A DNA stretch of 64,000 bases from NCBI GenBank assembly GCA_013911745.1, contig JACESO010000001.1, positions 1 to 64,000 on the forward strand, in the 5' to 3' direction. Made by a program: the position numbers and the translations under genes. A model generated the notes under the pieces. The model made no database searches and was not told where the DNA came from. It was given only the letters and a program-made list of their open reading frames with translations. Positions 2,209-31,272 of the stretch are shown piece after piece; the stretch's first letter is position 1, and each line of letters opens with the position of its first letter. The stretch is from Sphingobium sp. (GTDB taxonomy: Bacteria > Pseudomonadota > Alphaproteobacteria > Sphingomonadales > Sphingomonadaceae).

Positions 2209-2925
2209 ATGGTGCGCAGCCTCATTGCCTATCTGGATTCGATCAAGAGTCGCGATCCCGCGCCCCGATCGCGTGCCGAGATCCTGCTCTATCCCGGCGT
2301 GTGGTCGCTTGCCTTCCATCGCATCGCGCACCGGCTCTATCGCGCGCGGCTGTTCTTCCTGGCGCGCGCGGTCAACCATCTCTCGCGTTTCCTGACCGGC
2401 AACGACATTCATCCCGGCGCGAAGATCGGCAAGCGTTTCTTCATCGACCATGGCTTCACGGTGATAGGGGAAACGGCGGAGATTGGCGACGATGTGACGC
2501 TATACCAGAATGTGACGTTGGGCGGTACGGACCCGGCCAATGGCATTGCGGGCAAGCGGCATCCCACGTTGCGGGACGGCGTGATCGTAGGATCGGGCGC
2601 GCAGGTGCTGGGCCCGATCGAGGTCGGTGCCCGCGCTCGCGTCGGCGCCAATGCCGTCGTGACGAAGGATGTCGCGGAAGCGGCGACGATGGTCGGCATC
2701 CCCGCGCGCGCGATGCTGGTCGACGTCACCGCCTATCAGCGCGACTTCATGCCCTATGGCACGCCCTGTTCGGATTGCTTCGATCCCGAAAAGCAGAAGC
2801 TGGAAGCGCTGCAATGCGAGGTCGAACAACTGCAGAAGCGGCTGGCCCAGCTGCTGGCGGAGCGTCAGAACCCTTTTCCGGCGAAGGCTGACATCTCCGT
2901 GGCGCAGGAGCGTAGCCGGGCCTGA
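2209..2925 (+). CDS. cysE: Serine O-acetyltransferase
   Basis: Transfers acetyl from acetyl-CoA to L-serine, giving O-acetylserine, the carbon acceptor for sulfide in cysteine synthesis. The 238-residue protein belongs to the shorter EpsC/CysE class. Residues about 60-170 hold the left-handed beta-helix hexapeptide repeats ([48 protein letters not shown]), including the HGFTVIGET region with the catalytic His. The C-terminal tail is rich in Gln/Glu and probably helical. The gene overlaps the following DUF2794 gene by one base (TGATG), suggesting coupling. It diverges from the TSUP transporter gene. Confidence 0.93.
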
Positions 2926-3263
2926 TGACCAATGTGACGCCGTTTCCCGGTTCGTCGCCCGGACAGATCGGGTTCGACCGGATCGAATTGCAACGGATCA
3001 TGGACCTGTACGGGCGGATGGTGGCGGCGGGTCACTGGCGCGACTATGCGATGGATATGGGGCGGGAGGCGGCGGTGTTCAGCGCCTTTCGCCGTACCGC
3101 CGAACGGCCCGAATATCGGATCGAAAAGCGTCCGGCGCTCCGTCACCGGCAAGGCATGTGGGCGCTGGTGGGGGAAGGCGGGCAGGTGTTGAAGCGCGGG
3201 CAGGAGTTGCAGGGCGTGCTTGCGCCCGTCGAGCGCAAGCTGATGCGGATCGTCGAGGAGTAG
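2925..3263 (+). CDS. DUF2794 family protein
   Basis: 112-residue cytosolic protein matching the alphaproteobacterial DUF2794 family, recognised by the FDRIELQRIMDLYGRMVAAGHWRDYAMD and AVFSAFRRTAERPEYRIEKRPA stretches. No biochemical function is established. No signal peptide or membrane segment is visible. Its start codon overlaps the cysE stop, so it is probably made from the same transcript. Confidence 0.8.
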   Translation: MTNVTPFPGSSPGQIGFDRIELQRIMDLYGRMVAAGHWRDYAMDMGREAAVFSAFRRTAERPEYRIEKRPALRHRQGMWALVGEGGQVLKRGQELQGVLAPVERKLMRIVEE

Positions 3264-24574: not shown

Positions 24575-26623
<2,049 letters not shown>

Positions 26624-26669: not shown

Positions 26670-28544
26670 TCAAATACCATCTTCGGGCTGCGCCAGTTCC
26701 GCCAGTCTGCGATCATGATCGGCCATCAGCGCGCGAATGCGCTGCTGTTCAGCGAAATTGGCTTCGCTGACGTCCTTCTCGAATCGCTTCGTAGCCTCCA
26801 CCATCGCCGCTTCCAGCTCCGGCCCCTGCGCCATCACCCGGATAGCCTCCTCCAGATCGCGCGAAACGCGACCGGGATCGGCAGTCATCCTGTATGGGGT
26901 GAGTGAAAACGTATCGGCCCGGAGCATCCCCTTGGCCCTATTATACACTTCACCTTGCCCCAATATGGTAAGCAGGGCCTGCGTTTCAACTGTTTCTTTG
27001 TGGAAGGAGCATCGGATCATCGTCGCGAGCAGTTCCGCCAGAGCGGGATCGGCGATTCGCAGCGCCGAAAGCTGCTCCCGATGCGGCGCGATCTGCTCGG
27101 GATGCCGCAACAGGCTGGCGAGAACGGCGCGCAGCAGCCTTTGTTCCATCCCGCCTTCGCCAATTGCGCGGGCTTCGGCCCCGGCGGGCGGTGTGGGCGG
27201 TTTCCAGTTGCCCCGCTTGTCGCGCCGCCAGCGGGGCGCGCCGCCGCCGAACGAACGCGCTTCCCCGGCTGCCGTCGGGTGCCGGGCGAAGAACTTCGCG
27301 TCATAGCGCTCGCGAAATTCATGGGCATAATGGGCGCGCACGTCCGGGTGCTGGATCGCGTCGGACCGGGCGCGCAACCGCTGTTTCAGCGCCGCCTTCT
27401 GTTCGGGTGTGTCCAGCGGCGAGGCCGCGACCTCATGCGTCCAGAGCCGGTCGATCAGAGACTGGGCGCCGGCCAGCACCTCTTCCATCGCGCGCGGGCC
27501 GCTGGCGCGGATCAGGTCGTCGGGATCCTGTCCCGCCGGCAGGGTGGCGAAGCAGAGGCTGTGGCCGGGGCGCAGCAGGGGCAGGGCGCGGGTGGCCGCG
27601 CGAATGGCGGCCTTCTGGCCTGCGGCGTCGCCGTCGAAACAAAGGATCGGCACCTCCACCATTTTCCACAGCCGTTCGATCTGATGTTCCGTCAGCGCCG
27701 TCCCGAGCGGCGCAACCGATTCTGGAAATCCCGCCTGCGCCAGCGCGATCACGTCCATATAGCCTTCGACCACGATGACGCGGCCGCTCTGCCGGCTGGC
27801 GGGAGACGCCTTGTCGATATTGTAGAGCGTGCGGCCCTTGTCGAAGAGCGGCGTGTCGGGGGAGTTCAGATATTTGGGCTCACCCTGGCCCAGGATGCGC
27901 CCGCCAAAGGCGATCACCCGCCCGCGAATGTCGCGGATCGGAAACATCAGCCGGCCGCGGAACCGGTCGTAAGCATCACGCTCTCCATCCGGGTCGATCA
28001 GCAGTCCGGCCTCGACCAGCATCGGTTCCCCGAAGTCCTTGAGCGCGCTCTTCAATTTGCCGCGCGAATCGGGGGAGTAGCCAAAGCCAAAGGTGCGTCG
28101 GATCGCGTCGCTGATCCCGCGCCTGGCGAGATAGGCGCGCGCCTCGCCGCCGTCGATCCCCGCCAATTGCTCCTCGAAGAAGCCCTGTGCCGCAGCCATT
28201 GCCTCGTGCAGCCCCTTGGCCTGCTCAGCCCGTTTCGCGGCGCGGGGATCGGCGGCGGGCACCTCCATGCCCGCGCCGGCCGCCAGTTCCTTCACCGCCT
28301 CCATGAAGGGCAAGCCGCGATGATCGGTCATCCACCGGATCGCATCGCCATGCGCGCCGCAGCCGAAGCAGTGATAGAAGCCCTTCTCGTCGTTGATCGT
28401 GAAGCTGGGCGTCTTTTCGTTATGAAAGGGGCAACAGGCCTTATATTCGCGCCCCGCCTTCTGCACCTTCACCGTCTTCCCGATCAGGGTCGACAGCGAC
28501 GTGCGGGCACGCAATTCGTCCAGCCATTGCGGGGTGAGGGTCAT
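26670..28544 (-). CDS. dnaG: DNA primase
   Basis: 624-residue primase that makes RNA primers at the replication fork. The N-terminal CHC2 zinc finger has C38, H41, C59 and C62. The Toprim catalytic core contains VIVVEGYMDVIAL and the acidic ICFDGDAAGQKAA segment. The C-terminal region (about 450-624) is the helicase-binding domain. The start codon overlaps the stop of the DUF559 gene by four bases, and sequence just upstream of its start is the edge of an inserted repeat cassette. Confidence 0.97.
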   Translation of the reverse strand: MTLTPQWLDELRARTSLSTLIGKTVKVQKAGREYKACCPFHNEKTPSFTINDEKGFYHCFGCGAHGDAIRWMTDHRGLPFMEAVKELAAGAGMEVPAADPRAAKRAEQAKGLHEAMAAAQGFFEEQLAGIDGGEARAYLARRGISDAIRRTFGFGYSPDSRGKLKSALKDFGEPMLVEAGLLIDPDGERDAYDRFRGRLMFPIRDIRGRVIAFGGRILGQGEPKYLNSPDTPLFDKGRTLYNIDKASPASRQSGRVIVVEGYMDVIALAQAGFPESVAPLGTALTEHQIERLWKMVEVPILCFDGDAAGQKAAIRAATRALPLLRPGHSLCFATLPAGQDPDDLIRASGPRAMEEVLAGAQSLIDRLWTHEVAASPLDTPEQKAALKQRLRARSDAIQHPDVRAHYAHEFRERYDAKFFARHPTAAGEARSFGGGAPRWRRDKRGNWKPPTPPAGAEARAIGEGGMEQRLLRAVLASLLRHPEQIAPHREQLSALRIADPALAELLATMIRCSFHKETVETQALLTILGQGEVYNRAKGMLRADTFSLTPYRMTADPGRVSRDLEEAIRVMAQGPELEAAMVEATKRFEKDVSEANFAEQQRIRALMADHDRRLAELAQPEDGI

Positions 28545-28939
28545 GGCTGATCGCGGAGAAAACTCCCCTCCCGCCTGCGGGAGGGGTTGGGGGAGGGCAT
28601 GTTGGCGATCACGCGTTCGATTTCATCGATCACGCCTTCGATGTTGCCCAATACATCATGGTTCCAGAAGCGGATCACACGAAAACCCTGCGCTTCGATA
28701 TAGCTGGTTCGCTGCCTGTCGACTTCCTCACCGTGCTGGCTGCCGTCGACTTCAATCACTAGCCCGATGGATCGAGCCACAAAGTCGCAGATGAAAGGGC
28801 CGATCGGCACTTGGCGATTGAACCGGATGCCACGCACTTTCCGTGCGCTGATCGCTTGCCATAAGGCACGTTCGGCATCCGTCGCATTGTTGCGCAGGGC
28901 ACGCGCTTTCATGGTTGGGCGGGCGTAGCCTTTATCCAT
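28541..28939 (-). CDS. DUF559 endonuclease-like protein in a repeat-bounded cassette
   Basis: 132-residue DUF559 protein. The domain is related to Vsr/restriction-endonuclease-like folds. Core motifs seen are RNNATDAERALW, VRGIRFNRQVPIGPFICDFVARSIGLVIEVDGSQH (an acidic D...E-x-D pair as in PD-(D/E)xK nucleases) and RVIRFWNHDVLGN. The start at 28939 lies just inside the 5' inverted repeat, with AAGG nearby. The last 18 residues (from PSPNPSRRREG) are translated from the 3' repeat, and the stop overlaps the dnaG start. Function of the family is not established. Confidence 0.85.
   Translation of the reverse strand: MDKGYARPTMKARALRNNATDAERALWQAISARKVRGIRFNRQVPIGPFICDFVARSIGLVIEVDGSQHGEEVDRQRTSYIEAQGFRVIRFWNHDVLGNIEGVIDEIERVIANMPSPNPSRRREGSFLRDQP
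28564..28603 (-). repeat. Inverted repeat, copy A (3' of the DUF559 gene)
   Basis: 40-base element matching copy B at 38 of 40 positions in opposite orientation. It contains a ten-base perfect palindrome (CCCCTCCCGC/GCGGGAGGGG, 28565-28586) with a two-base centre. Confidence 0.85.
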
Positions 28940-28947
28940 TGGCCTTG

Positions 28948-28987
28948 AACATGCCCTCCCCCGACCCCTCCCGCAAGCGGGAGGGGA
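28948..28987 (+). repeat. Inverted repeat, copy B (5' of the DUF559 gene)
   Basis: Mate of copy A. It contains the same ten-base palindrome (28965-28986). It lies between the DUF559 start and the yqeY stop, so the pair brackets a 424-base cassette (28564-28987). Confidence 0.85.
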
Positions 28988-28998
28988 AATAGTCGATC

Positions 28999-29451
28999 TC
29001 ACCCCAGCGCAGCCTTCACCAACCCGCTGGCCTTGCTCATGTCGATGACGCAGCCGTGGCGTTCCTTCAGCACGGCCATCACCTTGCCCATGTCCTTCAC
29101 GCTCGCCGCGCCGACCTCCGCCTTGATGCTCTCGATCGCGGCTTTCGTCTCTTCCTCGCTCATCTGCGCGGGGAGGAAGCTCTCGATCACGTCCAGTTCG
29201 GCCTGTTCCTTCGCGGCCAGCTCGTCGCGCCCGCCGCTCTTGAACATGTCGATCGATTCGCGGCGCTGCTTCGCCATCTTCTGGAGCACATCTACCACCA
29301 CCATATCATCTTCCGGCACGGTCGATGCGGTGCGCAGTTCGATGTCGCGGTCCTTCAGCTTTGCCAGGATCAGGCGCACGGCGGCCAGCCGATCCTTGTC
29401 GCCGGCCTTCATCGCGGTGACCTGGGCGCTTTTAATCGTGTCGCGAATCAT
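28999..29451 (-). CDS. GatB/YqeY domain protein
   Basis: 150-residue stand-alone GatB/YqeY domain, starting MIRDTIKSAQVTAMKAGDKDRLAAVRLILAKLKD. The domain is the C-terminal tRNA-interacting module of the amidotransferase subunit GatB; the free-standing protein's role is not settled, though an effect on tRNA-linked amidation is often proposed. The frame is open much further upstream, but those codons are antisense to carA. The start at 29451 gives the family N-terminus. It is the first gene of the yqeY-dnaG-rpoD direction and divergent from carA. Confidence 0.9.
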   Translation of the reverse strand: MIRDTIKSAQVTAMKAGDKDRLAAVRLILAKLKDRDIELRTASTVPEDDMVVVDVLQKMAKQRRESIDMFKSGGRDELAAKEQAELDVIESFLPAQMSEEETKAAIESIKAEVGAASVKDMGKVMAVLKERHGCVIDMSKASGLVKAALG

Positions 29452-29607: not shown

Positions 29608-30774
29608 ATGGCTGACGCCAAGACCCTCATTGTGCCCAAAGGAGCGACAGGGGTCGTGGTTTTCGCCGATGGCAGCGCGGTGTTCGGCCGCGGTTTCGGC
29701 GCCGTGGGCGAAGCGGTGGGCGAACTCTGCTTCAACACCTCCATCACCGGCTATCAGGAGATCATGACCGATCCCTCCTACGCCGGGCAGATCATCAACT
29801 TCACCTTCCCCCATATCGGCAATGTCGGCACCAACCTGGACGATGTGGAGGCCGACAACCCCTATGCGCTCGGCTGCATCGTCCGGCAGGATGTGACCGG
29901 GCCCAGCAATTTCCGCAATGTCGAGCCGTTCGATCAGTGGATGCGCGAGCATGGCCGCATCGGCCTTGCCGGCGTGGACACGCGGGCGCTGACTCGGCTC
30001 ATCCGGGTGAAGGGCGCGCCCAATGTTGTCATCGCGCATGATCCCGAAGGCCGGTTCGACCTTGCCGCGCTGGCCGCCAAGGCGGCAGCTTGGCCGGGCC
30101 TTGAAGGCATGGACCTCGCCATCGAAGTCACCGGCAAGGAAAGCCGCCTGTGGAAGGACGGCGTGTGGAAGCTCGGCTTTGGCTATGGCGCGGGCGAAGC
30201 GACCGACGACCGCCCCCATGTCGTCGCGATCGACTATGGCGCGAAGAACAATATCTTTCGCAATCTGGTGAAGGCCGGCGCGCGCGTTACCGTGCTGCCC
30301 GCCACCGCCACTTATGAGCAGGTGATGGAGCAGAAGCCCGACGGCGTGTTCCTCTCCAACGGTCCGGGCGATCCTGCCGCGACCGGCGCCTATGCCGTGC
30401 CGGTGATCGCGGCGCTCTTGACCGAGAATATCCCGATCTTCGGCATCTGCCTGGGTCACCAGCTTCTCGGCCTCGCGGTCGGCGCGAAGACGATCAAGAT
30501 GCATCAGGGCCATCGCGGGGCGAACCATCCGGTCAAGCGCCTGTCGGACGGCCTGGTCGAGATCACCAGCATGAACCACGGCTTCGCGGTCGACGCCGAC
30601 ACGCTCCCCGACAATGTGCGGCCTACCCATGTGTCGCTCTTCGACGGCAGCAATTGCGGCATCGAACTGACCGACAGGAACGCCTTCTCGGTCCAGTACC
30701 ACCCCGAAGCCTCGCCGGGACCGCAGGACAGCTTCTACCTGTTTAAACGGTTTGTGGAGGGGTTAACGACGTGA
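29608..30774 (+). CDS. carA: Carbamoyl-phosphate synthase small (glutaminase) subunit
   Basis: 388-residue glutamine amidotransferase subunit that supplies ammonia to CarB for carbamoyl phosphate (pyrimidines and arginine). The N-terminal CPSase small-chain domain includes GEAVGELCFNTSITGYQEIMTDPSYAGQ. The class I GATase domain has the nucleophile C281 in GICLGHQ and the His/Glu pair in QYHPEASPGP. A GAAGGAACC stretch lies before the ATG. Unlike the usual arrangement, carB does not follow directly: a 548-base stretch with an antisense AT-rich gene intervenes. Confidence 0.96.
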   Translation: MADAKTLIVPKGATGVVVFADGSAVFGRGFGAVGEAVGELCFNTSITGYQEIMTDPSYAGQIINFTFPHIGNVGTNLDDVEADNPYALGCIVRQDVTGPSNFRNVEPFDQWMREHGRIGLAGVDTRALTRLIRVKGAPNVVIAHDPEGRFDLAALAAKAAAWPGLEGMDLAIEVTGKESRLWKDGVWKLGFGYGAGEATDDRPHVVAIDYGAKNNIFRNLVKAGARVTVLPATATYEQVMEQKPDGVFLSNGPGDPAATGAYAVPVIAALLTENIPIFGICLGHQLLGLAVGAKTIKMHQGHRGANHPVKRLSDGLVEITSMNHGFAVDADTLPDNVRPTHVSLFDGSNCGIELTDRNAFSVQYHPEASPGPQDSFYLFKRFVEGLTT

Positions 30775-31272
30775 GAATGGATCAGGAAAATGAGGGATGG
30801 CTTCTCGGTATGCTCTCACAATGTGCCTTCCCGCATAAAGTTTCAGGCTTCCCCAAAATATCGCAATGTCATCCGCGTAATCACATCCAAGAATCACATC
30901 ATTTATTTGCATTGCGGCAGGGCAATATCCAACCATTACGTTAAATACGAACTTATTTTGTTGGAATATATGAGCTCCACTGGAGATGTGGCAGGAAGCA
31001 TTTCGACAGTCTCTAATTAAATCGGTAACATCTCTACCACCATCTTGCTGAGAGATATCGTCCTTGAAGCATATTCGTTTTCGGTTTTTATCTAGTTTTT
31101 GAAGCAAGTCACTCAATTCAATGAGGATTTGTGTTATGCAAGGTCGAAAGAAAGGGCTCTCTGATCCTTTTGAACTTAGGATGCCGGTGTCTAAGAGATC
31201 AGCAATACTACGAATTGAAGTACGAGCATCTGTATCAAAATAGTCTGCTGGGATTGAGCCTGGTTTTCTCAT
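30763..31272 (-). CDS. AT-rich inserted gene, candidate HEPN-like protein
   Basis: 169-residue protein of no family I recognise, lying antisense between carA and carB. Hand count over 30841-31320 gives 195 G+C in 480 bases (about 41%), against about 62% in a neighbouring carA line, so it is likely foreign. The protein is helical, with ITQILIELSDLLQKLDKNRKR (about 46-66) and then DVTDLIRDCRNASCH, in which R90-N91-x3-H95 fits the Rx4-6H (R-N-x-x-x-H) motif of HEPN RNase folds. This match is short, so the class is inference. The final codons overlap the carA end by 12 bases. Confidence 0.7.
   Translation of the reverse strand: MRKPGSIPADYFDTDARTSIRSIADLLDTGILSSKGSESPFFRPCITQILIELSDLLQKLDKNRKRICFKDDISQQDGGRDVTDLIRDCRNASCHISSGAHIFQQNKFVFNVMVGYCPAAMQINDVILGCDYADDIAIFWGSLKLYAGRHIVRAYREAIPHFPDPFSRR

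Follow-up and report, generated by a model that had tools for sequence, protein, structure and literature searches.

Inverted palindromic repeats flank a DUF559 nuclease gene between yqeY and dnaG in Sphingobium: a candidate repeat-nuclease cassette

Palindromic repeats are widespread among bacterial genomes. The system closest to the one described here pairs repetitive extragenic palindromic (REP) sequences with RAYT genes; its features are taken from PMC3116915 and PMC3733652, in the accessible portions of which RAYTs are single-copy. For CGTC-tagged REPs, the same portions of the 2013 survey (PMC3733652) state that no dedicated transposase was found. Intrastrand triplex motifs occur in Escherichia coli and other bacteria; that of E. 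coli (TM-ECO, formerly PIT) was shown to form a triplex in vitro, and the part of that 2015 paper available to us reports no mobility-related gene near its copies (PMC4666352). We analysed a stretch of 64,000 nucleotides from Sphingobium sp. (GCA_013911745.1, contig JACESO010000001.1, positions 1 to 64,000; hereafter the window), in which a DUF559 gene lies between yqeY and dnaG and is enclosed by two palindromic repeats in opposite orientation. We favour, as the somewhat more probable reading, that this element is a repeat-nuclease cassette, in which two copies of the cognate palindrome, in opposite orientation, enclose a DUF559 gene in the manner of REP and RAYT. Our searches of the open-licence literature in PubMed Central returned no link of DUF559 or ycjD genes to these repeats, within the available text and excluding preprints, and no paper treating GIY-YIG together with "repetitive extragenic palindromic".

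The two repeat arms of the window lie at 28564-28603 (plus strand, dnaG side) and at 28948-28987 (minus strand, yqeY side). As a first-pass annotation of the window had described, they match at 38 of 40 bases (95% complementary) and each holds a perfect palindrome with arms of 10 bp; the palindrome has a loop of 2 nt. The hairpin of the first arm (28565-28574 with 28577-28586) is followed by a loop, TTG, at 28587-28589 and by a third strand, GGGGAGGGC, at 28590-28598, which points towards the gene; the second arm has the loop TCG and the same third strand, also directed towards the gene. Behind both hairpins the third strand mirrors the purine arm at nine of nine positions, and each arm is therefore an intrastrand triplex motif like that of PMC4666352, as far as the available part of that paper describes it. 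The folding energies of the hairpins as single-stranded DNA were -12.5 and -11.3 kcal/mol (z -2.2 and -2.6) with a program that folds without the third strand. The 22-base palindrome, with up to three mismatches allowed, was present in the window at the two arms only, and a chance origin of the pair was rejected since none of 100 shuffles of the window gave it at two places.

The gene between the arms (28541-28939, minus strand, 132 amino acids) belongs to DUF559: the PF04480 profile matched the open reading frame 28541-29002 of the minus strand with an E value of 6.3e-36 and 123 bits, above the curated cut-off of 20.6. Its likely ATG at 28939 lies 9 nt inside the downstream arm, just within the repeat as had been claimed, and an alternative GTG start is located upstream at 29002. 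The further claim that the last 18 residues are translated from the other repeat stands for the C-terminus as such, part of which is read from the first arm, while the count needs correction: about 13 residues fall in the 40-nt arm and about seven more lie beyond it. Other searches of the window gave little: the sole Rfam match was a tRNA, PADLOC returned two weak matches alone (DpdF, E 0.0017; mREase_II, E 0.02), and no GTAG tetranucleotide tag was seen by eye beside the hairpins of the window, a look at this window only and not a systematic survey.

The association of DUF559 genes with such repeats extends far beyond the window. We scored it in a named set, the best 80 of 548 relatives among the matches listed, which is biased towards the query and includes Alpha-, Beta-, Gamma- and deltaproteobacteria, Nitrospirae, Rokubacteria, Binatia, Chloroflexi and Gastranaerophilales. 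Inverted flanking repeats with a score of at least 13 were found at 60 of these 80 loci and at two of 860 shifted placements used as controls. In a phylum-wide sample, 16 of the best 30 loci had them (3 of 177 controls), and so did 20 of 29 DUF559 loci of the order of the window and 17 of 20 further Sphingobium loci. A polypyrimidine:polypurine hairpin (YR hairpin) within 200 bp of the gene was present on any side at 75 of the 80 named loci and on both sides at 53, as compared with 4 and 0 of 144 other genes of the same loci and with 18 and 0 of 999 shifted placements. The corresponding values for the phylum-wide sample were 29 and 14 of 30 loci, and 8 and 1 of 118 controls. The first-pass annotation had asked whether DUF559 genes are enriched next to such pairs and took a general lack of association to speak against its proposal; the enrichment is evident, and the pairing of DUF559 with hairpins is, as a genomic fact, close to certain.

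The hairpins share further features with those of the window. Of 320 hairpins, with each strand counted separately, 106 had a mirrored third strand on the 3' side and one on the 5' side; it runs towards the gene in 80 of the 106 and away from it in 26. Matching flanking arms with lengths of 40 to 110 nt occur at DUF559 loci. In a plasmid collection, inverted repeats with scores of 19 to 98 (highest control, 16) were found at the DUF559 loci of two Deinococcus, of Sinorhizobium and of Sphingomonas parapaucimobilis, the last of which is likewise located between yqeY and dnaG. A Pseudanabaena DUF559 gene is enclosed by inverted repeats of 40 nt with another sequence and has no polypyrimidine hairpin, and a Synechocystis DUF559 locus has one hairpin.

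Comparison of the three nuclease families in Sphingobium and its relatives showed that the type of repeat differs with the family of the neighbouring gene. YR hairpins were found at 19 of 20 DUF559 loci and at none of 20 small GIY-YIG loci, while a CGTC-type palindrome was found at none of the former and at 10 of the latter. Inverted flanking repeats of some kind were present at 18 of these 20 GIY-YIG loci (0 of 120 controls). The CGTC type recurs around GIY-YIG genes of Azospirillum and Aeromonas and also around a Neisseria GIY-YIG gene, but there one control scored as high. The 14 Y1_Tnp (PF01797) loci, 11 from Sphingobium and three others, had no YR hairpin, no CGTC-type palindrome and, by the test applied to DUF559, no inverted flanking repeats. 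The source genome, a metagenome-assembled genome of 2.89 Mb that is 81% complete, has no Y1_Tnp match. A RAYT was accordingly rejected as the mover of these repeats, and the likeness to RAYT and REP with a different nuclease family, which the first-pass annotation had drawn, holds as an analogy.

The same tie was seen between whole genomes. In a survey of 398 genomes of the phylum, of which 110 have DUF559 at an E value of at most 1e-10, a strict triplex motif occurred in 68 of the 110 and in 19 of the other 288 (Fisher p 4e-30), and the co-occurrence was maintained within 21 taxonomic families, to which 299 of the genomes belong, with an odds ratio of 27 (p 3e-14).

Copies of the repeat without a DUF559 gene, for which the first-pass annotation had called, exist both in the source genome and in its Sphingobium relatives. 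The source genome has one DUF559 gene and seven places with the exact palindrome. Three of these are no more than 33 bp from the end of a contig (C44, C123 and C131), which probably means that the assembly broke at repeats and that the true number of copies is higher. Two of the seven places belong to gene-less inverted doublets, whose partner copies have two or three mismatches and whose hairpins lie outside and third strands inside, which is the layout found around DUF559. The exact palindrome was present in 48 of 56 Sphingobium genomes, source included, and in none of 35 genomes of other genera (genus assignment being inferred), while the reversed pattern used as a control was absent from all 91. 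Pairs of palindromes at most 150 bp apart numbered five in genome G019, where 0.007 were expected, and five in the listed part of one contig of G023, where 0.07 were expected. Four genomes with 30 to 53 exact palindromes (G002, G012, G023 and G049) have no Y1_Tnp match, and two have one Y1_Tnp (G010, with 37 exact palindromes, and G027, with 69).

The DUF559 protein is predicted to be a single-domain nuclease resembling Vsr and other EDxHD enzymes. Its AlphaFold model has a mean pLDDT of 81.9. Foldseek ranked the solved homologue 3HRL first (E 3.4e-22 by sequence) and the homing endonuclease I-Bth0305I second (3R3P; E 6.7e-5, TM-score 0.80 by target); the restriction enzyme PvuRts1I was among the further matches, and Vsr came seventh (E 0.012). 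Residues E23, D52, E63, D65 and H69 are invariant among 48 DUF559 sequences; we take them to match the catalytic residues of Vsr, and we use the name EDxHD on the same assumption. The median ratio of nonsynonymous to synonymous substitution rates (dN/dS) in three site subfamilies was 0.07-0.12, as compared with 0.11-0.19 for yqeY in the same genomes, and the DUF559 proteins are therefore maintained by purifying selection. Mean silent divergence (pS) in the three subfamilies was 0.58, 0.64 and 0.50 for DUF559 and 0.40, 0.39 and 0.26 for the neighbouring yqeY.

A member of the family is also present in E. coli K-12. The ycjD gene of MG1655 (2706-3261 of our locus L329) matched PF04480 with an E value of 1.4e-49, and triplex motif no. 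9 of PMC4666352, as listed in the part of the paper available, lies at 1351205-1351239, 168 nt past the ycjD stop; the end of the gene itself resembles a remnant of the motif in sequence. A 1-kb stretch around ycjD is kept at 80% or more in 3333 of 5426 genomes. One E. coli control genome had no DUF559 match, though K-12 ycjD matches the profile. Both ycjD-less strains that were examined have an efflux operon at the site, named eef in the accessible text of PMC12817139, and E. coli was rejected as a clean empty-site test on this ground. Taken with the taxa above, these observations suggest a family of mobile repeats, as yet undescribed, that recurs in distantly related bacteria, E. coli included.

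In the window, the DUF559 gene is located downstream of yqeY (GatB/YqeY; 28999-29451, minus strand), which ends at 28999, and is on the same strand as dnaG (primase; 26670-28544, minus strand), the start of which is overlapped by the DUF559 stop, as the coordinates bear out; the next gene of the operon, at 24575-26623 of the minus strand, is presumably an rpoD-like sigma factor. This junction is a hotspot at which DUF559 genes of different types, GIY-YIG cassettes, remnants and clean gaps alternate. The 90 Sphingobium sites contained GIY-YIG genes or their remnants (27), DUF559 of type A, the subfamily of the window at 61% identity or more (22, one a remnant), of type B (13) and of type C (4), clean gaps of 10-13 bp (8) and other contents (16). 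Presence of the cassette at this site in all relatives, which would have spoken for ordinary vertical inheritance, was thus not observed. One site (L222) has kept both repeats, one of them with a mismatch, around an internally deleted DUF559 gene.

Mapping of the site states on a tree of the flanks gave 46 changes over 90 tips (shuffled mean 52.8, as low in 2 of 200 shuffles), and the clustering was confined to the group of other contents: the 22 tips of type A required 20 changes, as compared with 19.9 after shuffling, and the 13 tips of type B required 12. A subset of 70 sites, 40 of which had been picked mainly for the lack of DUF559 next to dnaG, gave 35 changes (shuffled mean 39.6). Relatives (L030, L035, L043, L072 and L077) have a further cluster of DUF559 sites, probably between carA and carB; at its position in the window, about 3 kb away, there is an unassigned open reading frame of 169 amino acids (30763-31272).

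Repeats and enzymes were also shared between sites. In clade D a repeat with the tail TTGGGTGAGGG was common to 9 of 13 loci, only 3 of 78 pairs of which share a neighbour. Sphingobium DUF559 proteins at different sites shared a long repeat in 21 of 33 pairs at 60% identity or more and in about 42 of 837 pairs below it, although these pairs are not independent. The similarity of proteins and repeats was weakly correlated in the named set (Spearman 0.22, 0 of 1000 permutations as high). Two Deinococcus proteins (L334 and L336) identical at 98 of 113 positions (87%), each between inverted repeats, are encoded at separate junctions of the hpa cluster, and the hpaE-oxidoreductase junction has an insert in NW-56 and overlapping genes in D. 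proteolyticus.

The genomes themselves thus display the pairing and its specificity, gene-less doublets, repeats shared across sites, turnover and purifying selection. For the movement we propose a sequence of events in which the repeat, when single-stranded during replication or repair, would fold, the DUF559 nuclease would recognise the folded repeat and nick or cut there, and repair would then copy or insert the repeat pair at another place. A copied unit that contains the gene would give a new cassette, and one without it a gene-less doublet or a solo repeat. We infer from sequence the binding and cutting of the repeat by DUF559, its driving of the movement and each of these chemical steps. 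Most likely, the nuclease would act on its own folded palindrome and spread it, as has been proposed for RAYTs and GTAG repeats, but here by way of a hydrolytic enzyme. The mobile palindrome-plus-nuclease cassette that the first-pass annotation had held possible is in this respect supported, its movement and cutting by the enzyme being presumed.

Several observations weigh against a cassette moved by its own nuclease. The YR hairpin was missing at five of the 80 named loci, the Picosynechococcus DUF559 locus has no flanking repeat, and the single hairpin of the N. gonorrhoeae locus is 177 bp distant. Type A was present in 21 of 91 genomes and always at yqeY-dnaG, as judged by eye from the coordinates, and the DUF559 subfamilies cluster by site (9 changes, 34 when shuffled). 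The strict type-B repeat was found at yqeY-dnaG only (9 genomes), and the type A repeat occurred off-site in 10 of the 21 genomes that have the gene and in 14 of the 70 that lack it (p 0.02), which is a moderate tie only. A general correlation of proteins with repeats was rejected for Sphingobium, where all pairs at different sites gave a Spearman coefficient of 0.04 (244 of 1000 permutations as high), sharing being limited to pairs above 60% identity. In the phylum survey, 14 of the 253 genomes with no DUF559 match at all and 5 of the 35 with nothing but weak ones have the strict motif. It is missing from 42 of the 110 DUF559 genomes, among them the source genome, whose variant of the repeat falls outside the strict pattern. 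Finally, no target-site duplication was identified at the one filled and empty Deinococcus junction that was read.

The strongest rival, which we nevertheless consider unlikely, is that DUF559 is a free-standing homing endonuclease that cuts the empty yqeY-dnaG allele, the cassette then being copied in through recombination of the flanks and the repeats being accessory and not the substrate. The rank of I-Bth0305I as second closest predicted fold after 3HRL agrees with this explanation, and so do the fidelity of the subfamilies to their own sites, the patchy presence of the gene among relatives at the fixed yqeY-dnaG site, the alternation with GIY-YIG genes at the same spot, and the silent divergence of DUF559, which is higher than that of yqeY as expected under cassette exchange. 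However, homing leaves unexplained the hairpins at nearly all DUF559 genes examined, the single repeat common to related enzymes at unrelated sites and the gene-less doublets, and the Deinococcus cassette occupies two different junctions. Homing at the fixed site may act together with the cassette mechanism, since type A remains at one site while its repeat occurs elsewhere (37 of 64 matches).

Still less probable, in our judgement, is that DUF559 is a host mismatch-repair or restriction-like nuclease which hitchhikes between repeats spread by other machinery. Such a role has been proposed for a Caulobacter DUF559 protein, VsrA (CCNA_02930), to which the available portion of PMC12907096 attributes the SOS response in cells lacking a cytosine methylase, and repeats persist in genomes that have no DUF559 gene. 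This explanation has to contend with the lack of the repeat at Y1_Tnp and GIY-YIG loci and its rarity at other genes, with a repeat type that follows enzyme identity above 60% across sites, and with a co-occurrence that holds within families. It is scarcely credible that these are terminators or intergenic hairpins of the ordinary kind, paired in inverted orientation by coincidence: G+C-rich hairpins are common at gene ends, but the two-sided hairpins at 53 of 80 DUF559 loci and at none of 144 other genes strongly disfavour plain terminators, which were rejected on that count, as do the length of the matching arms and the one-sidedness of the third strand.

A cassette of this kind would provide a function for DUF559, which was matched in 145 of the 398 genomes of the phylum at an E value of at most 0.001, and would mean that a hydrolytic nuclease, and not an HUH transposase alone, can partner a dispersed palindrome. 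We also advance, tentatively and at a little under even confidence, the view that hydrolytic single-domain nucleases of two folds are dedicated to the palindromic repeat superfamilies for which no transposase was known: DUF559/Vsr-like enzymes would be the partners of triplex motifs and GIY-YIG enzymes those of CGTC repeats. Together with RAYT and GTAG, these would make up a single class of nuclease-palindrome elements whose spread does not depend on a usual transposase, and the triplex and CGTC repeats found across bacteria would largely be their products. Candidate enzymes for the triplex and CGTC repeats make the questions of their origin testable, that of the triplex motif in E. coli K-12 through ycjD.

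Among described systems, REP/REPIN-RAYT shares with the elements studied here short palindromes, inverted doublets, a nuclease gene beside its own repeat type and dispersed repeats. As in REPIN-RAYT, the partner gene is flanked by the repeat and inverted doublets are dispersed without the gene. The partner differs, being a PD-(D/E)XK/Vsr-like DUF559 protein and not an HUH Y1 enzyme, and repeats of the window type carry a mirrored third strand. CGTC-tagged REPs are alike in that such palindromes flank small GIY-YIG genes analogously; the nuclease fold and the repeat are others, and the principle alone is common. I-Bth0305I and Vsr resemble DUF559 in predicted fold and in the conserved acidic and histidine residues, but DUF559, unlike I-Bth0305I, has no intron host and is flanked by palindromes. 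TM-ECO, as described in the accessible part of PMC4666352, likewise has a hairpin with a third strand, second loops of 3 nt (TTA or CCG in TM-ECO, TTG and TCG in the Sphingobium window) and inverted doublets; it differs from the element of the window, whose arm is CCCCTCCCGC, in that here a nuclease family is tied to the motif.

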